Positions 49,138 through 57,752 of a stretch of DNA of 64,000 bases are shown one piece after another; position 1 is the stretch's first letter; the number at the start of each line of letters is the position of its first letter. The notes beneath the pieces were generated by a model, which saw only the letters and a list, made by a program, of their open reading frames with translations, had not been told where the DNA came from and did no database searches. A program made the position numbers and the translations under genes. The DNA comes from Pseudomonas sp. 8O (GTDB lineage Bacteria > Pseudomonadota > Gammaproteobacteria > Pseudomonadales > Pseudomonadaceae): assembly GCF_902506495.1 (NCBI RefSeq), contig NZ_LR733264.1:2099403-2163402 (forward strand), given 5' to 3'.

Positions 49138-50187
49138 ATGAAAACCCTCGCCAAACTGCCTGTCACCATCGTCACCGGTTTTCTCGGTGCCGGCAAAACC
49201 ACCCTGCTGCGTCACCTGTTGGCCCACGCTGAAGGTCGCCGTATAGCGGTGATCGTCAACGAGTTCGGCGAACTGGGTATCGATGGCGAGATCCTCAAGC
49301 AATGCTCCATCGGCTGCAGCGAAGAGGAGGCCAACGGCCGCGTTTTCGAGCTGGCCAATGGCTGCCTGTGCTGCACCGTGCAGGAAGAGTTCTTCCCGGT
49401 GATGCGCGAGCTGGTGGCGCGCCGTGGCGACCTCGACCATATCCTTATCGAAACCAGCGGTCTGGCGTTGCCCAAGCCACTGGTGCAAGCCTTCAACTGG
49501 CCGGAAATTCGCAATGCCTGCACGGTCGATGCGGTGATCACCGTGGTCGACAGCCCTGCTGTGGCCGCTGGCACCTTCGCCGCCTTCCCCGATCAGGTGG
49601 ACGAGCAGCGCAAGCTCGATCCCAATCTGGATCATGAATCGCCCCTGCACGAGCTGTTCGCCGACCAGTTGGCCAGCGCTGACCTGGTGATCCTCAACAA
49701 GGCTGACCTGCTCGACGCCGAGGCGCTGGCCGTGGTGCGCGCCGAGGTGGCCGAGGAGCTGCCGCCGGCGGTCAAGGTGATCGAGGCGCACGGCGGCGAG
49801 CTGCCGCTGGACGTGCTGCTGGGGCTGAACAGCGAAACCGAGCTGCATATCGACAGCCGCCGCACCCATCACGACGATGAAGACGACGACCACGATCATG
49901 AGGAATTCGACTCGTTCCACGTGGAACTACCCGAAGCCGAAGAGGCGCGCCTGCTGGCTGCGTTGAAGGATGCGGTGGCCAAGTACGGCATCCTGCGGGT
50001 GAAGGGCTTCGCAGCGATCCCTGGCAAACCGATGCGCCTGCTGGTGCAGGGCGTGGGCCAGCGCTTCGACCGCCACTTCGACCGCGCCTGGCAGGCCGAC
50101 GAGCCGCGTCTGAGCCGCCTGGTGGTGATCGGCCAACAGCTTGACCGCGCGGCCATCGAGGCCGAGCTGAAAGCGGCGCTGACTTGA
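49138..50187 (+). CDS. cobW: CobW, metal-chaperone GTPase of cobalamin synthesis
   Basis: A protein of 349 residues from ATG 49138 (MKTLAKLPVTIVTGFLGAGK). It has Walker A GFLGAGKTT, the CxCC metal motif GCLCCTV, the guanine motif NKAD and a His/Asp-rich loop HHDDEDDDHDHEE. It is a G3E GTPase that delivers Co(II) to the cobaltochelatase CobN encoded next. The gene contains a GTTCCACGTGGAAC word (49914-49927) resembling parS. Confidence 0.96.
   Translation: MKTLAKLPVTIVTGFLGAGKTTLLRHLLAHAEGRRIAVIVNEFGELGIDGEILKQCSIGCSEEEANGRVFELANGCLCCTVQEEFFPVMRELVARRGDLDHILIETSGLALPKPLVQAFNWPEIRNACTVDAVITVVDSPAVAAGTFAAFPDQVDEQRKLDPNLDHESPLHELFADQLASADLVILNKADLLDAEALAVVRAEVAEELPPAVKVIEAHGGELPLDVLLGLNSETELHIDSRRTHHDDEDDDHDHEEFDSFHVELPEAEEARLLAALKDAVAKYGILRVKGFAAIPGKPMRLLVQGVGQRFDRHFDRAWQADEPRLSRLVVIGQQLDRAAIEAELKAALT
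49913..49928. promoter_or_regulatory. parS-like palindrome inside cobW
   Basis: The 14-bp core GTTCCACGTGGAAC is perfect, but both outer bases differ from the parS consensus (C and T instead of T and A). It lies about 25 kb from oriC, and binding may be weaker. Confidence 0.6.
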
Positions 50188-50192
50188 TAATG

Positions 50193-50245
50193 ATCGCCCG
50201 CAAGCGGGCTCCTACGCACCCTGTAGGAGCCCGCTTGCGGGCGAT
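50193..50245. repeat. Perfect 23-bp inverted REP pair between cobW and cobN
   Basis: ATCGCCCGCAAGCGGGCTCC+TAC (50193-50215) and its exact reverse complement (50223-50245) flank a 7-base loop. It is a head-to-head REP doublet of the GTAGGAGC family. A transcript would form a very stable hairpin 16 bases before cobN, possibly reducing read-through or cobN translation. Confidence 0.9.
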
Positions 50246-50261
50246 TTACTTGGATTCGTAG

Positions 50262-53200
50262 ATGCACTTACTGCGTACCCAGCCCGGCGCCCAACTGCCG
50301 GCCGACAGCATCGCCGACCTTGGCCAGACGCCTGCCGAGCTGGTGATCCTGTGCACGGGTGATTCGCACCTCTCCCTGCTGGCCGAAGCCGCCCGGCAAC
50401 TGCCGGAAGACTACCCCAGCCTGCGCCTGGCCAGCCCGGCGCAGCTGAGCAACAACGCCTCGGTGGACTACTACGTCGAGCAGGTGCTGCAGCATGCCAA
50501 AGTTATCCTGATTTCGGTGCATGGCGGGGTGAGCTACTGGCGCTATGGCGTCGAACGCCTTGTGGAGCTGGGTGCGCGCGGCGCCACGGTGATCATGGTG
50601 CCGGGCGACGACAAGCCCGACCCGGAGCTTAATGCGCTCGGCAACGTCGGTGAGGAAGACAGCCAGCGTCTCTGGCAGTACCTGCGCCAGGGTGGGCTGG
50701 ATAACGCCCGCCAATTGTTCCGCTGCATCGGCAGCCGCTGGCTGGGCCGCGCTGACAGCTGGCAGGAGCCGCAGCCACTGCCACGCGTCAGCCTCTATCA
50801 CCCGCAGCACAGCCCGGCCGCGCTGGCTGACTGGCAGCTGCAATGGCAACCCGGCGCGCCTGTGGTGGCGCTGCTGTTCTACCGCAACCATGTGCAGTCG
50901 GCGAACACGGCCTTCGTCGATGCCTTCTGCGATCACCTCGTCACTCAGGGTCTCAACCCGCTACCCATCGCCGTGGCCAGTCTCAAGGAAGCGGCCTGCC
51001 TGGATCAGGTGCAGACCTGGCTGGACGAGACGAGCGCCGCGCTGATCATCAACACCACCGGTTTCGCGCTATCCAACCCCGAGGCGCCGCAGGCACGGGT
51101 GTTCCGCCGCGATATCCCGGTGCTGCAGGCCATCTGCTCGCTGGACAACCAGACGCAATGGCAGGCCAGCGTCCAGGGCCTGGGCTCGCGCGACCTGGCC
51201 ATGCACGTGGTGCTGCCCGAGCTGGATGGTCGGCTGATCGGCACTGCCATCAGTTTCAAGGGCCTGGCCTGGCGCAGCGAGCGGAGCCAGAGTGACGTGG
51301 TGTGCTACCAGGCACACGAATCGGGTATGGCCTTCATCGCCGAACTGGCGAGTAATTGGTGTCATTTGGCGGTTAAAGGTAACGATCAGAAGCGAATAGG
51401 TCTGATCCTGGCCAACTACCCGACTCGCGATGGCCGCATTGGCAACGGCGTGGGTCTGGATACGCCCGCCGCCGCGCTGAACATCCTCCGTGCGCTGCAG
51501 GTACAGGGCTATCCGGTGGATAACCTGCCGGGTAGCGGCACCGAACTTGTCCACAGCCTGCTCGGCGGCGTCACCAACGACCTCGACGGCCTGGATTCGC
51601 GGCCCTGCGCGCAAAGCCTGGCGCTGGACGACTACCTGAGGTTTTTCCACAGACTGCCTGAGCAGAATCAGCAGGCAGTGCGCGAGCGCTGGGGCGAGCC
51701 GCAGGCCGATCCGATGTTCCGCAGCGGGCGGATGATGGTCGCCGGCCTGCGCTTCGGCCTGACCTTCGTCGGCATCCAGCCGGCGCGCGGCTACCAGCTC
51801 GACCCGGCGGCGGTGTACCACGATCCGGATCTGGTGCCGCCGCATGGTTATATCGCCTTTTACGCCTGGCTGCGTACGGCGTTCTCTGCCGATGCGCTGA
51901 TCCACGTCGGCAAGCATGGCAACCTGGAATGGCTGCCGGGCAAGAGCGTCGGCCTGTCCGAGAACTGTTGGCCGCAGGCGCTGATCGGCCCGTTGCCGAA
52001 TATCTATCCTTTCATCGTCAACGATCCCGGTGAGGGTGCGCAGGCCAAGCGCCGTACCCAGGCGGTGATCATCGATCACCTGATGCCGCCACTGACCCGT
52101 GCCGAGAGCTACGGCCCGCTGCGCGACCTGGAGCGTCTGGCCGACGAGTATTTCGAGGCCAGCCAGCTCGACCAGCGCCGTGCCGTGGAGCTGCGAGGCG
52201 AGATCCTGACCAAGGTGCGCGAGGCCAGCCTCGACCGCGAGCTGGGTCTGCAACTCAACGATGACCCGGAGAGCTGGCTGCCGCAGCTCGACGCCTACCT
52301 GTGCGACCTCAAGGAATCGCAGATCCGCGACGGCCTGCATGTGTTCGGCGAGTCGCCTGCTGGCCAACTGCGCCGCGACACGCTGCTGGCGTTGCTGCGC
52401 ATCCCCCGTGGCGATGGCCAGGGCGCCAATGCCAGCCTGCTGCGCGCGCTGGCGCGTGGCCTGGAGCTGGGCCTCGACCCGCTGGACTGCGACATGGGCC
52501 AGCTCTGGGATGGGTTACGTCCACAGGCGTTGCAGGCTGTGGATAACAGTCTGTGGCGCAGCGTCGGTGATACCCGCGAGCGCCTGGAGCTGCTGGCGCT
52601 GAGGTTGATCGAGCAGCGCCTGGCCGGCGAGTGCATCAGCGATTTCGGCGACGAGGTAGCGCTGATTCTCGATGGGCTGACCGAGCATATCGCGCCTTTG
52701 CTGGATGCCTGCGGCGATGCCGAAATGGGTGGCTTGCTCGCCGCGCTGGCAGGGCGTTTCGTGCCCGCCGGGCCGAGCGGCGCACCGAGCCGTGGGCGCC
52801 TCGACGTGCTGCCCACCGGGCGCAACTTCTTCACCGTCGACGTACGCCACCTGCCCACGCCCACCGCCTGGCGCCTCGGCGTGCAGGCGGCTGACCGTCT
52901 GCTGGAGCGCCATCTACAGGACGAGGGCGACCACCTGCGCCAGCTCGGCCTGTCGGTGTGGGGCACGGCGACCATGCGTACCGGCGGCGACGACATCGCC
53001 CAGGCGCTGGCGCTGATGGGCGTGCGCCCGGTATGGCAGCCGGGCAGCCAGCGCGTCGAGCGCTTCGAGGTATTGCCGCTGGAGCAGCTCGGCCGCCCAC
53101 GGGTGGACGTGACCCTGCGCGTCTCGGGCTTCTTCCGCGATGCCTTCAGCAACCTGATTCGCCTGTTCGACGAGGCCGTGCAGGCGGTGATCGAGCTCGA

Positions 53201-54008
53201 TGAGCCGGAAGACATGAATCCGCTGTCGGCGCGGGTCTGGCGTGAGTCGCTGGCATTGAAGGACAGCGGCCTGGATGAAGGCGAAGCGCGGCGTCAGGCT
53301 GGCTGGCGGGTGTTCGGCGCCAAGCCGGGCGCCTATGGCGCCGGGGTGCAGAACGCCATCGAGGAGCGTCTGTGGCAGAGCCGCGCGGACTTGGCCGAGG
53401 TCTACCTGAACTGGGGTGGCTACGCCTACGGCAGCGGCGCCGAGGGCGCACCCGCTCGGCAGCGCTTCGTCGAGCGTCTGGAGCAGATGCAGGCGGTGCT
53501 GCACAACCAGGACAACCGCGAGCACGACATCCTCGACTCCAACGACTACTACCAGTTTCAGGGCGGCATGCTGGCGGCGGTAGAGACCCTGCGCGGGCTC
53601 AAGGTGGCCAGCTATTTTGGTGACAACAGCCAGCCGGATACGCCGCGCATTCGCACCCTGAAGGAAGAACTCAATCGCGTGGTGCGGGCACGCGCCGCCA
53701 ATCCCAAATGGATCGAGGGCATGAAGCGCCATGGCTACAAGGGTGCCTTCGAGCTAGCCGCGACCATCGACTACCTGTTCGCCTTCGACGCCACCAGCGA
53801 GCTGGTCGATGACCACCAGTACGCGCTGCTGACCGATGCCTACCTGCTCGATAGGGACACCCGCGACTTCATCCAGCAGCACAACCCAGGCGCGCTCAAC
53901 GATATCCTCGAACGCCTGCTGGAAGCCCAGCAGCGCGGCCTGTGGGAGAATCCCGGGCAATACCGCGAAGCCCTGGAGAACCTGTTGCTCGATAGTGAGG
54001 AGTCATGA
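50262..54008 (+). CDS. cobN: Cobaltochelatase large subunit CobN
   Basis: A protein of 1248 residues, full length for CobN/ChlH-type chelatases. Visible blocks include HVGKHGNLEWLPGKSVGLS, GNGVGLDTPAAALNIL, the Gly-rich AGVQNAIEERLW and EHDILDSNDYYQFQGGM. It binds hydrogenobyrinate a,c-diamide and inserts Co2+, powered by the AAA+ subunits encoded downstream as chlI/chlD. There is no conventional strong ribosome-binding site after the REP hairpin. The start ATG could be slightly different, but MHLLRTQPGAQLPAD fits. Confidence 0.96.
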   Translation: MHLLRTQPGAQLPADSIADLGQTPAELVILCTGDSHLSLLAEAARQLPEDYPSLRLASPAQLSNNASVDYYVEQVLQHAKVILISVHGGVSYWRYGVERLVELGARGATVIMVPGDDKPDPELNALGNVGEEDSQRLWQYLRQGGLDNARQLFRCIGSRWLGRADSWQEPQPLPRVSLYHPQHSPAALADWQLQWQPGAPVVALLFYRNHVQSANTAFVDAFCDHLVTQGLNPLPIAVASLKEAACLDQVQTWLDETSAALIINTTGFALSNPEAPQARVFRRDIPVLQAICSLDNQTQWQASVQGLGSRDLAMHVVLPELDGRLIGTAISFKGLAWRSERSQSDVVCYQAHESGMAFIAELASNWCHLAVKGNDQKRIGLILANYPTRDGRIGNGVGLDTPAAALNILRALQVQGYPVDNLPGSGTELVHSLLGGVTNDLDGLDSRPCAQSLALDDYLRFFHRLPEQNQQAVRERWGEPQADPMFRSGRMMVAGLRFGLTFVGIQPARGYQLDPAAVYHDPDLVPPHGYIAFYAWLRTAFSADALIHVGKHGNLEWLPGKSVGLSENCWPQALIGPLPNIYPFIVNDPGEGAQAKRRTQAVIIDHLMPPLTRAESYGPLRDLERLADEYFEASQLDQRRAVELRGEILTKVREASLDRELGLQLNDDPESWLPQLDAYLCDLKESQIRDGLHVFGESPAGQLRRDTLLALLRIPRGDGQGANASLLRALARGLELGLDPLDCDMGQLWDGLRPQALQAVDNSLWRSVGDTRERLELLALRLIEQRLAGECISDFGDEVALILDGLTEHIAPLLDACGDAEMGGLLAALAGRFVPAGPSGAPSRGRLDVLPTGRNFFTVDVRHLPTPTAWRLGVQAADRLLERHLQDEGDHLRQLGLSVWGTATMRTGGDDIAQALALMGVRPVWQPGSQRVERFEVLPLEQLGRPRVDVTLRVSGFFRDAFSNLIRLFDEAVQAVIELDEPEDMNPLSARVWRESLALKDSGLDEGEARRQAGWRVFGAKPGAYGAGVQNAIEERLWQSRADLAEVYLNWGGYAYGSGAEGAPARQRFVERLEQMQAVLHNQDNREHDILDSNDYYQFQGGMLAAVETLRGLKVASYFGDNSQPDTPRIRTLKEELNRVVRARAANPKWIEGMKRHGYKGAFELAATIDYLFAFDATSELVDDHQYALLTDAYLLDRDTRDFIQQHNPGALNDILERLLEAQQRGLWENPGQYREALENLLLDSEES

Positions 54009-54019
54009 AGCGACTCGTT

Positions 54020-54260
54020 CCCGTAGGGCGGGCTAGCCGCCTGTTGCGGTGTTTGGCCGGATCACCGAAGCGGGTGCGGCGTAGCCCACCATTGGCGTCA
54101 CGCCTGGCATCGCCCGGTGGGTTACGCGGCGCGCTGCTCCCCGGCGCGGCTACAAGACCTACGTTCCGCGCCGCTAACCCACCCGGGGGCATGCAGCCCG
54201 TAGCCCGGATGCAATCCGGGAAATGCGCGACCAAAGGCCCCGGATTGCATCCGGGCTACG
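54020..54260. repeat. Composite repeat block between cobN and chlI
   Basis: It includes imperfect GCGTAGCCCACC/GGTGGGTTACGC palindromes (54075-54130) and a perfect 21-bp inverted repeat: GTAGCCCGGATGCAATCCGGG at 54200-54220 with its complement at 54239-54259. It is non-coding. A 93-codon open frame through it has repeat-derived composition and is not considered a gene. Confidence 0.85.
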
Positions 54261-54282
54261 TCCATATCCACGGATCACTGCC

Positions 54283-55284
54283 ATGACCGAACATCACTTC
54301 CCCCTCGCCGCCGTGGTCGGCGCCGATTCGCTGAAGCTGGCGCTGTGCCTGGCGGCTATCGATCCGGCCATCGGCGGTGTGCTGATAGAGGGGCCGCGTG
54401 GCATGGCCAAGTCCACGCTGGCTCGTGGCCTGGCCGATCTGCTCGACGGTGGGCGCTTCGTCACCCTGCCGCTGGGGGCGAGCGAGGAGCGCATCGTTGG
54501 CACCCTGGATCTGGATGCGGCCCTCGGCGAAGGCCGCGCGCAGTTTTCCCCTGGTCTGCTGGCCCGTGCCGATGGCGGCGTGTTGTATGTGGATGAGGTC
54601 AACCTGCTGCCCGATCATCTGGTCGACCTGCTGCTCGATGCCGCCGCCAGCGGGGTCAACCACGTCGAGCGCGACGGCATCTCCCATCGCCACGCCGCGC
54701 GCTTCGTGCTGATCGGCACCATGAACGTCGAGGAGGGCGAACTGCGTCCGCAACTGCTCGACCGCTTCGGCCTCAACCTGGCGCTCGATGGCCAGCCGCA
54801 ACCGGCCGAACGCGCCGAGATCGTCCGTCGCCGTCTGGCCTTCGATGCCGACCCCGCCGCCTTTCTGCAACGCTGGCAGGGCGAGCAGGGCGCCCTGGCC
54901 GAACGTTGCCGCAATGCCCGCCAGCGCCTGGCGGATACTCCGCTGGATGACGCCGCCCTGGGTGAGATTAGCCAGCGCTGCTTCGCCGCCAGCGTCGATG
55001 GCCTGCGCGCCGATCTGGTCTGGCTGCGCGCTGCCCGTGCCCATGCGGCCTGGCGTGGCGCGGCGGCTATCGAGCCTGTGGATATCGATGCGGTGGAGGA
55101 CTTTGTCCTGCGCCATCGCCGTCGCCAGTCGCAACCGCCTGCTGCCACGCCGCCCGAGCAGAGCCAGGCGCCGCAACAGGCGAATGAACAGAGCCAGGGT
55201 GAAGGCCAGTGGGGCGAGCTGCCGGCGCAGCCGCAGGCCATGGGTGAGCGGCGGGTGCCGCCGCGCTGGCCAAAAAAGCCCTGA
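54283..55284 (+). CDS. chlI: AAA+ chelatase subunit (ChlI-like), zero-frame product
   Basis: A protein of 333 residues. AAA+ motifs: a Walker A variant GPRGMAKST near residue 39, LPLGASEERIVGTLDLD, Walker B GGVLYVDEVNLLPDHLV, and RFVLIGTMNVEEGELRPQLLDRFGL. Residues from about 287 to the end form a Gln/Pro-rich linker (PPEQSQAPQQANEQSQGEG) that is typical of ChlD/BchD rather than ChlI. It ends two codons after the heptamer AAAAAAG. It works with CobN as the ATPase small subunit. The same message probably also makes the fused ChlD by -1 frameshifting. Confidence 0.9.
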   Translation: MTEHHFPLAAVVGADSLKLALCLAAIDPAIGGVLIEGPRGMAKSTLARGLADLLDGGRFVTLPLGASEERIVGTLDLDAALGEGRAQFSPGLLARADGGVLYVDEVNLLPDHLVDLLLDAAASGVNHVERDGISHRHAARFVLIGTMNVEEGELRPQLLDRFGLNLALDGQPQPAERAEIVRRRLAFDADPAAFLQRWQGEQGALAERCRNARQRLADTPLDDAALGEISQRCFAASVDGLRADLVWLRAARAHAAWRGAAAIEPVDIDAVEDFVLRHRRRQSQPPAATPPEQSQAPQQANEQSQGEGQWGELPAQPQAMGERRVPPRWPKKP

Positions 55285-55318
55285 GCATCCGCCCGCGCAC
55301 AGCCACTGGCGCGGATGC
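55272..55318 (+). promoter_or_regulatory. Candidate -1 programmed ribosomal frameshift signal
   Basis: The slippery heptamer A_AAA_AAG (55272-55278) is in the correct zero-frame phase. A 6-base spacer with the zero-frame TGA (55282-55284) leads to the stem GCATCCGC (55285-55292) pairing perfectly with GCGGATGC (55311-55318), with a small inner GCC-ACT-GGC stem. A -1 slip leads from ...W-P-K-K into A-L-S-I-R-P-R of the VWA frame. A strong upstream Shine-Dalgarno-like stimulator was not seen. Confidence 0.75.
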
Positions 55319-56033
55319 CCGTAACCGGCCCGGACGACTCGGCGGCGGCCATCGCGGCGCTGCCCGTGCTGGCGTGCACGGTCGTATCGACTGGGCGGCG
55401 ACCCTGCGCCAGGGCCGACCGCAACGCCGCGAACAGTTGGTACTGCGCCCGCGCAGCCAGCAGGCTGAGGAACTCTGGCTGGTGCTGGTCGATGCTTCTG
55501 CCTCGACCCGGCGCCATGGTGCGCTGAGCCGGGCCAAGGGCGTGCTCACCGAAGTGTTCGACAGCGCCTATCGCCAGCGTGCGCGCCTGGCCGTGCTGCA
55601 GGCTGGTGGCCGCGAAGCGCAATGGTTGTGGCAGGGGCGCAAGGCCAGCGCCGAGCTGCATCGCTGGTTGCACGAGTTGGGCGCAGGAGGCGGCACGCCG
55701 CTGCTCGACGCGCTGAATCAGGCCGGCGACTGGCTGCTGCGCCGCCAGCGCGCGAAACCGAACGAGCGCCAGCGCCTGCTGATCCTGACCGATGGCCGTT
55801 TGCGTGATCTTCCAGCGTTGGCGCCGCTGCCGTGTCCGACCCTGCTGCTCGACACCGAACGCGCGCCCATCCGCCTGGGCCGTGCCCGCCAGCTGGCGCA
55901 GGCGCTACAGGCCGAGTACCACCATATCGATGATCTACTGCCTGTAGGAGCCGCGGGGGCGCCTAGCCTCGCGGGTGATGATCGCCGGCAAGCCGGCTCC
56001 TACGGGTTGTCCGTTACCTGGAGAACCCCATGA
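55278..56033 (+). CDS. chlD: VWA part of ChlD (chelatase medium subunit), reached by frameshift
   Basis: In this frame 251 residues follow the shift site; the fused product from 54283 would be 583 residues. Residues just after the shift (ALSIRPRTATGADARNRPG) are basic and look like the ChlD region preceding its VWA domain. The VWA domain has the metal-site LVLVDASAST, then GGGTPLLDALNQAG and LLILTDGRL. No ATG, GTG or TTG occurs in frame between the stop at 55245-55247 and GTG 55374, which would cut off the basic segment. The C-terminal 25 or so residues are translated from a REP element. It ends overlapping cobF (ATGA). Confidence 0.8.
   Translation, partial: ALSIRPRTATGADARNRPGRLGGGHRGAARAGVHGRIDWAATLRQGRPQRREQLVLRPRSQQAEELWLVLVDASASTRRHGALSRAKGVLTEVFDSAYRQRARLAVLQAGGREAQWLWQGRKASAELHRWLHELGAGGGTPLLDALNQAGDWLLRRQRAKPNERQRLLILTDGRLRDLPALAPLPCPTLLLDTERAPIRLGRARQLAQALQAEYHHIDDLLPVGAAGAPSLAGDDRRQAGSYGLSVTWRTP
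55944..56003. repeat. REP doublet within the chlD 3' end
   Basis: GTAGGAGCCG... at 55944 and CGGCTCCTAC ending at 56003 bound two hairpins (GCGGG/CTCGC type and GCCGGCAAGCCGGC). It is the same family as the doublet at 50193-50245, but here it lies inside the open frame of chlD. Confidence 0.8.
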
Positions 56034-56797
56034 AAACCCTGCTGCTGGTCGGTATCGGTGCCGGCGACCCGGACTACATCACCTACCAGGCGATCAAGGC
56101 GCTGCGCCGCAGCGATGTGATCTTCCTGATGGACAAGGGCGCGGCCAAGCACAAGCTCAACGCCTTGCGCCGGGAGATCTGTGCGCGCTTTCTCGATGGC
56201 CGCACGCCGCGTTTCGCCGAAGGCCAGCAGCCGGAACGCGAGCGTGACGTCGCCGACTACCGCGCCAGCGTCGATGAACTCAACCGTGACAAGCAGGCGG
56301 TGTTCGAGCAACTGCTCGACGAGCAGATGGCCGATGGCGAGACGGCGGCCTTCATGGTCTGGGGCGACCCGTCGCTGTATGACAGCAGCATCCGCATCAT
56401 CGAAGCCATCGCCGCGCGCCGTAGTGATTTCACCTACGACGTCATCCCAGGCATCACCAGCCTGCAGGCGCTGACCGCGCGCCACCGCATCCCGCTCAAC
56501 AGCATCGGCCGTGCCGTGGAAATCACCACCGGCCGCCTGCTCGCCGAAGGCTGGCCGCAGGGCGTGGACAGCGTGGCGGTGATGCTCGACGCCAAGGACA
56601 CCTACCGCCGCTTCGTCGGCCACGGCCTGCATATCTACTGGGGGGCCTACGTCGGCACCGCCGATGAAATCCTCATCGCCGGTCCGCTGGATGAGGTGGC
56701 CGAACGCATCGTCACCACCCGCGCCGAGGCGCGCGAGCGCAATGGGTGGATCATGGATAGTTATCTGCTGCGCAAAGAGGGTGTGGCGGAGGCGTAA
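56030..56797 (+). CDS. cobF: Precorrin-6A synthase (deacetylating) CobF
   Basis: A protein of 255 residues with a tetrapyrrole methylase fold: VGIGAGDPDYITYQAIKAL, a central MVWGDPSLYDSSIRIIEAI and DVIPGITSLQAL, and the CobF-specific GLHIYWGAYVGTADEILI. It methylates C1 of precorrin-5 and removes the acetyl group in the aerobic B12 route. It overlaps chlD by 4 bases. A decayed copy of its 3' part lies at 58411-58473. Confidence 0.95.
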   Translation: MKTLLLVGIGAGDPDYITYQAIKALRRSDVIFLMDKGAAKHKLNALRREICARFLDGRTPRFAEGQQPERERDVADYRASVDELNRDKQAVFEQLLDEQMADGETAAFMVWGDPSLYDSSIRIIEAIAARRSDFTYDVIPGITSLQALTARHRIPLNSIGRAVEITTGRLLAEGWPQGVDSVAVMLDAKDTYRRFVGHGLHIYWGAYVGTADEILIAGPLDEVAERIVTTRAEARERNGWIMDSYLLRKEGVAEA

Positions 56798-56855
56798 CAT
56801 GAAGCGCGGTGAAGAAGAGCGCTGTCCTCCCTACGCCTGTGCAAGAGCAGCCCGC

Positions 56856-57752
56856 TTACATCATGAAGTGGCTGGAATCCTCTGCGGGGCCGAGGCTGTT
56901 TTGCGCGCGGCGTATCAAGCGGGGAACCTCGTCGATCAGATAAGCCCAGAATCTGTCGTCGTTCACCGTCTGTTCAACGAGTTGGATTGGCAGGAAGCGC
57001 TGCATTTCGCTGCGAAAATCCGTCTTCACCTGCGGGTCGTTGATCAGCGTAGCTGAGCGCTGTGCAGCTTTTTCCAGGAAGTCGCGAGTTTGCACCCGAT
57101 GGTCGTTGAGTTTGTCGGGCAGCAACTGCAGGGCTGGTTCTATCTTTTGCTGTTTCATCCAGAGCAGATCCCAGAGGTCGCGGCTCTTGATCCGCCCCTG
57201 CCTCAGAATGAATGCCAGGATCTTGTCGACATGGATTTCCTCGAGTGCTTCTGCGTTGAGGATCAGGCCTTGGGTGCCCATGTCCACGCCATAGGGGTTG
57301 AGTAGCGCTCTGGGCGTGCTGATGTAGCTCGGGATGGCGCAGATATCGATATGGATGCGTTGGGCTGGCAGGTTGCGTGCGTCAGGACGTGTCTGCACCT
57401 TCAGCTTCCAGGTATCAACATTGCCGGACTCCTTGCTCGGTTCGCTGACGTCTACACGCAGGCTGTATTTCGCCTGCAACTTTTGGATCAGTGCTTCACT
57501 CATCTGGGCGAAGTCGTCCCGGTTGAAATCGGCGCCACCCGTGAAGTCCAGATCCTCGCTCAGGCGATTGGAGCCATAGCAAGCCCGCAGGCAGGTTCCG
57601 CCGATAAAGCAGAGCTTCTCGAGCAGGCCGGCCTCGCTCAACACCAGCATGATGTCGTGATGCAGCAGTTCCTTTTCTACCACGACGCGCAGGTTGGCCA
57701 GGTCAGGCAGGTTGCCGATGGCCTGGTCTACCAGTTGGTCAAACAAGCTCAT
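56856..57752 (-). CDS. abiEii: AbiEii-type nucleotidyltransferase toxin
   Basis: A protein of 298 residues. The nucleotidyltransferase signature FIGGTCLRACYGS followed by RLSEDLDFTGG and the downstream HVDKILAFILRQ and KSRDLWDLLWM match the AbiEii/AbiGii family (DUF1814). It is the toxin of type IV AbiE systems, which give abortive phage infection. It follows its antitoxin gene with a 14-base overlap. Active-site residues appear intact. Confidence 0.9.
   Translation of the reverse strand: MSLFDQLVDQAIGNLPDLANLRVVVEKELLHHDIMLVLSEAGLLEKLCFIGGTCLRACYGSNRLSEDLDFTGGADFNRDDFAQMSEALIQKLQAKYSLRVDVSEPSKESGNVDTWKLKVQTRPDARNLPAQRIHIDICAIPSYISTPRALLNPYGVDMGTQGLILNAEALEEIHVDKILAFILRQGRIKSRDLWDLLWMKQQKIEPALQLLPDKLNDHRVQTRDFLEKAAQRSATLINDPQVKTDFRSEMQRFLPIQLVEQTVNDDRFWAYLIDEVPRLIRRAQNSLGPAEDSSHFMM

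Follow-up and report, generated by a model that had tools for sequence, protein, structure and literature searches.

A very probable programmed -1 frameshift in the chlD gene of Pseudomonas sp. 8O, retained across the genus

Among the AAA+ proteins that are made in two lengths sharing one ATPase module, a well-known case is that of dnaX of Escherichia coli (tau and gamma). There, an A_AAA_AAG heptamer is followed by a downstream stem and decoded by tRNA-Lys(UUU), zero-frame reading yielding the long form and frameshifting the short. It is the decoding of AAG by tRNA-Lys(UUU) that makes A_AAA_AAG slippery in E. coli. A second described system is the frameshifted chelatase gene chlD (fs-chlD), to which Antonov reportedly devoted a further study in 2020. 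In the account of Antonov (2013, PMC3711429), 23 magnesium chelatase fs-genes from six genera, Pseudomonas included, form one cluster; three cassettes gave 63, 40 and 10% frameshifting in E. coli, and the tested cassettes carried runs of 11, 9 and 7 As, none of which is named in the description of these assays as the Pseudomonas A_AAA_AAG. According to the chlD section of Atkins (2016, PMC5009743), A_AAA_AAR is under strong purifying selection in Pseudomonas and others, a stem of P. protegens is shown, and regulation and divalent cations are already raised for chlD frameshifting. Moreover, a single fs-chlD gives both Co-chelatase subunits in P. aeruginosa, a stage 8 example in Table 1 of Kuznetsov (2022, PMC9227772). 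A preliminary description of the locus studied here had noted that chlD frameshifting yields two chelatase subunits in other bacteria; the relevant parts of these three papers (PMC3711429, PMC5009743, PMC9227772) agree, and they include Pseudomonas itself. Our literature search found no further work on Pseudomonas chlD beyond the studies named above.

The locus lies in a 64-kb stretch of the Pseudomonas sp. 8O sequence (64,000 nucleotides, hereafter the window), where the preliminary description had proposed that chlI and chlD are one gene read two ways by -1 frameshifting. Read base for base, the junction has the heptamer, the stem, the frames and the product lengths that had been claimed for it (Table 1). 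The zero frame ends with CCA AAA AAG CCC TGA, with A_AAA_AAG in the X_XXY_YYZ phase needed for tandem -1 slippage, and a perfect 8-bp stem starts six bases 3′ of the heptamer. The -1 frame opens only past a TGA at 55245-55247, has its first ATG, GTG or TTG at GTG 55374, and runs for 251 codons from the heptamer G to a TGA at 56031-56033. The predicted products thus have 333 aa (zero frame) and 332 + 251 = 583 aa (joined), the zero-frame start being taken at ATG 54283, although the mechanically called ORF begins at an earlier in-frame ATG, 54223. With both strands of the window counted, AAAAAAG occurs a single time, compared with about 2 in shuffled sequence, so the heptamer is not rare per se, and its phase, its place and its conservation are what count.

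Table 1. Positions in the window of the chlD junction, its two reading frames and the neighbouring cobalamin genes
Feature	Positions	Strand	Basis
cobW	49138..50187	+	TIGR02475 over cut-off; ATG 49138 chosen, mechanical ORF starts at GTG 48982
cobN, cobaltochelatase large subunit, 1248 aa	50262..54008	+	TIGR02257 over cut-off; PF02514
chlD zero frame, 333 aa: AAA+ ATPase with lid and Gln/Pro linker; predicted ChlI-like short product	54283..55284	+	Pfam AAA_5, AAA_lid_2, Mg_chelatase; TIGR02442/TIGR02030 below cut-off
Slippery heptamer A_AAA_AAG, in phase	55272..55278	+	Sequence; 138/142 genus loci; 80/80 named loci
chlD -1 frame, 251 aa beyond the predicted shift: basic segment plus VWA domain	55278..56033	+	Pfam VWA_2, VWA
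Zero-frame stop TGA, 3 nt past the heptamer	55282..55284	+	Same spacing in 135/138 loci
5′ arm of the downstream stem, GCATCCGC	55285..55292	+	Sequence, folding, covariation
3′ arm of the downstream stem, GCGGATGC	55311..55318	+	Sequence, folding, covariation
cobF, precorrin-6A synthase	56030..56797	+	TIGR02434 over cut-off

The two frames carry the layout of fs-chlD genes, a ChlI-like AAA+ module in the zero frame and a VWA domain in the -1 frame. In sequence comparisons the zero frame matches the solved ChlI/BchI structures 8osf, 6l8d and 1g8p. The top-scoring NCBIfam model for each part and for the joined product is TIGR02442, putative cobaltochelatase, and no model exceeds its cut-off; the joined 583-aa product reaches 471.8 bits, below the curated cut-off of 779.45. 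This profile spans both parts, as the joined product does, but here the parts sit in two reading frames. Across the genus loci described below, a DxSxS (MIDAS-type) match occurs in 138 of 138, and the P-loop variant GPRGMAKS in 135 of 138 (GPRGTAKS in two, not found in one). The -1-frame stop overlaps the start of cobF in an ATGA at 56030. A scan of positions 50000-57000 with Rfam at gathering thresholds gave no match.

Two repeats lie next to or within these frames. The first is a REP-like intergenic inverted repeat between cobN and chlD (54199-54261), which draws nearly all of 96 genome matches, many of these being a single site counted on both strands. The second (55943-56003, gtaggagcc...ggctcctac) lies within the 3′ end of the VWA frame, and a portion of it has matches at four further genomic places. 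Since the -1 frame has 253 codons in locus L009 and 221-234 in 133 of 138 loci, this repeat may have lengthened the VWA-frame protein.

The genus sample comprised 149 genomes, of which 142 have a chlD homologue at E 1e-20. Each of these 142 loci was read, and 138 keep the heptamer in phase. The remaining four have a broken -1 frame (L050), a zero frame matched only as separate pieces (L097, L098), or run off the contig end (L150). In the genome of L050 (G052) both cobN (split, with an internal stop) and chlD are broken and the heptamer is lost, through pathway loss or sequencing errors. A set of named species has the in-phase heptamer in 80 of 80 loci, 15 of which have a 160-nt junction identical to one in the genus sample; the closest named relatives, at 95-97% identity, include P. 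alcaliphila, P. guguanensis and P. indoloxydans. In both samples, therefore, the heptamer does not drift, and the overlap holds the conserved A_AAA_AAR slippery site of fs-chlD genes. The A run is of exactly six in 136 of the 138 loci and of seven in two. The zero-frame stop that follows at 3 nt in most loci comes at 0 nt in one and at 21 nt in two; every zero frame thus ends 0-21 nt past the heptamer, with no in-frame fusion among the 138. The -1 frame of all 138 shows homology to the VWA part encoded in the window, starting no more than four residues from the heptamer in 132.

A codon analysis of 136 of the 138 loci (L149, 5′-truncated, and L138, which holds N letters, were left out) found no variation in the AAA and AAG codons of the heptamer, unlike elsewhere in chlD, where both lysine codons occur. 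In five-codon windows, the excess of synonymous identity peaks at the heptamer, followed by the 3′ stem arm and the stretch just upstream. Both heptamer codons score 1.0, against a mean of 0.17 and a standard deviation of 0.24 over the gene, and the stem codons +3, +5, +12, +13 and +14 score 1.0, 0.64, 0.95, 1.0 and 0.71. Codon +4 scores -0.22 because it alternates between ATC and ATT, which is a covarying pair of the stem. Distant single codons also match the stem codons (0.98 at -252, 0.91 at -332), and little can therefore be concluded from single columns on their own. Judged from these alignments, the design of the junction is not a product of chance.

Conservation of the stem across Pseudomonas, proposed earlier as a check, was followed in 137 distinct sequences, with a 14-pair stem and 500 shuffles, and the base of the stem proved to be both kept and covarying. 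In this test 88.4% of cells form the stem, and sliding it by one to three columns leaves no more than 49.6%. Changes on both sides affect 72 cells versus 26.6 in shuffles, and none of the 500 shuffles reaches 72, a comparison to be read with the warning of the tool that related sequences can exceed shuffles without any structure. The clearest pair, 18-43, is CG in 76 sequences, UA in 43, UG in 15 and unpaired in three. The outermost pair, 13-54, fails in 52 sequences, including the window species, which explains why eight pairs and not nine had been seen there. The outermost G of the stem is the G of TAG in the 88 loci (of 138) that stop with TAG, a codon that ends the -1 frame of chlD in 32 of 138 compared with 88 of 138 at the recoding stop; as the -1 frame also codes at this G (Gly versus Ser), this link between TAG and stem is not proof of selection on the stem.

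The folding stability of the junction in the window species is modest, with z -1.65 for a 52-nt stretch and z 0.09 for a 101-nt stretch against shuffles; the 48 nt after the heptamer give z -0.92, a stability equalled or exceeded by five of 32 other windows of the gene. Over the genus, these 48 nt rank first in stability among the gene's sampled windows in 86 of 138 loci (mean z -2.88); RNAalifold on the genus alignment kept only six pairs of the stem. The downstream RNA structure known from fs-chlD genes is thus present here as a genus-wide covarying stem, with modest stability in the window species. A stimulator like the Shine-Dalgarno (SD) element of dnaX was sought upstream of the heptamer in the genus loci, and none is clearly conserved: the SD-like duplex energy averages -4.6 at 19-20 nt upstream against -1.8 over offsets, and is lower still at other offsets. 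Because the base of the stem is conserved and covarying and takes in the G of the recoding stop in most species, one might also imagine the stem as a regulated element through which metal or corrinoid supply could set the ChlI:ChlD ratio, a speculation to which we give little credence.

Taken as a whole, these sequence features make it very probable that one mRNA yields two chelatase subunits, both of them predicted, by programmed -1 ribosomal frameshifting. Ribosomes that keep frame would read AAA AAG CCC and stop at TGA 55282, producing a 333-aa AAA+ protein (ChlI/CobS-like). A fraction would slip back one base, with tRNA-Lys(UUU) in both the P and A sites on A_AAA_AAG and the stem ahead, and would then read AAA AAA GCC CTG AGC into a 583-aa protein with the AAA+ module and the VWA domain (ChlD/CobT-like). 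The short and long forms would assemble as the ATPase motor for CobN in aerobic cobalt insertion. From the junction we infer slippage at a useful rate, a ratio of the two products and their assembly. The genome has two tRNA-Lys genes, both with anticodon UUU, and none for tRNA-Lys(CUU), as recognized by an anticodon-loop pattern that misses unusual loops.

The alternative that survives best is that of two ordinary genes, with a VWA protein initiated at its own start or by termination-reinitiation at the zero-frame stop. Half of the loci (69/138) do carry at least one upstream ATG, GTG or TTG in the -1 frame, often at -63, and in the window species the -1-frame codon overlapping the TGA is a CTG. 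However, the open -1 frame of the other 69 has no such codon upstream of the heptamer, and their first downstream start varies from +30 to +210. Nor is the CTG conserved (43 CTG, 63 CTA and 21 TTA of 136). A strong SD-like match with a start-like codon between -66 and +135, by a threshold that we set ourselves and counting at most the first four downstream starts per locus, occurs in only seven of 138. Separate initiation also leaves the invariant codons of the heptamer unexplained, and we regard it as very unlikely.

A second alternative places the slippage in transcription, where RNA polymerase stuttering on the A run would create a mixed mRNA population. The homopolymer is certainly there, and one relative from outside the genus (L164) has a longer run, but the run in the genus is of six or, in two loci, seven As, and RNA polymerase slips poorly on runs as short as these. 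The phase of the heptamer, its trailing G, the spacing and the covarying stem fit the ribosome instead, which leaves transcriptional slippage extremely improbable. The chance that this is a single gene, decayed or wrongly sequenced, is negligible, since three of 142 loci (L050, L097 and L098) look broken but the frame change recurs at an identical position in 138 of the 142 loci and in all 80 of the named set, with both domains conserved. On the data for starts, codons, covariation and A runs, we thus rejected separate VWA initiation, transcriptional slippage and gene decay. Programmed ribosomal frameshifting of one gene, as first proposed, is supported: a conserved ordinary start for the VWA frame near the junction, or a heptamer drifting freely among homologues, would have spoken against it, and a search for both across the genus found neither.

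Regarding the partner of the predicted subunits, chlD (at E 1e-20) and cobN (over the TIGR02257 cut-off) are both present in 142 of the 149 genomes and both missing in the other seven; in a few of the 142, cobN is in pieces. A search of the window genome for CobT gave no match at E 0.001, and no other ChlI-like gene comes near the 271.4 bits of chlD, the next place reaching 28.4 bits. Judged from these CobT and ChlI-like matches, chlD probably supplies both AAA+ partners of CobN. Two of the seven genomes without chlD and cobN hold just a weaker CobN-family gene, which lies in an ORF of 1448-1491 aa and scores under the TIGR02257 cut-off (G060:C4:633806-635170 and G082:C79:34544-36679); neither has a chlD match, and their CobN relative could be of other function. 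As a separate observation, the window genome holds a comM/yifB-type Mg-chelatase-like gene (G000:C4:494478-495073; L152, near base 1500), in which the PF01078 match falls into two neighbouring segments that differ in frame; either the copy is broken or the assembly is in error.

Outside the genus, a class sample gave a homologue at E 1e-25 in 17 of 274 genomes, that of the window included. Among the other 16, the frameshift layout recurs in four (L164, L167, L168 and L170), seven carry a gene fused in frame (in L165 its VWA part is broken once more), and the remaining five resemble separate ChlI-type genes. A CobN-family gene is present in all 11 genomes with either the frameshift layout or the fused gene, and a second full ChlI-like gene was not found in these 11 at E 1e-15, where one of them (G174) has an extra ChlI-like fragment of 49 positions. 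As the seven fused-gene genomes keep the CobN family, a separate short form is not needed everywhere, and in some relatives a single fused protein seems to suffice, unless it is aided by CobS or a different ATPase. A reverse shift like that of dnaX, considered for the fused loci, was rejected: six of the seven have no in-phase A/T-type slippery heptamer near the junction, and the many slippery heptamers of the seventh (L172) are those expected from an AT-rich genome. These fused-gene relatives lend themselves to a natural comparison on the need for the short subunit.

Compared with dnaX, chlD has the identical heptamer, a downstream stem, tRNA-Lys(UUU) and an AAA+ protein predicted in two lengths, but no clear conserved SD-like stimulator, and its polarity is reversed, the zero frame encoding the short form and the shift leading to the long one. 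Compared with the published fs-chlD genes, it is the same gene, with the -1 shift predicted at A_AAA_AAR, the downstream stem and the cobN context, and nothing of substance is different. Frameshifted chlD is therefore already known, and the window provides one more species. On the sequence comparisons made here, the additions are small: relatives with an in-frame fused gene exist, and across the genus the stem has a conserved, covarying base, whereas the sequence of the structure is described as not strongly conserved in the chlD account of PMC5009743. The locus thus confirms a published recoding case in another Pseudomonas and shows how tightly it is retained across the genus.
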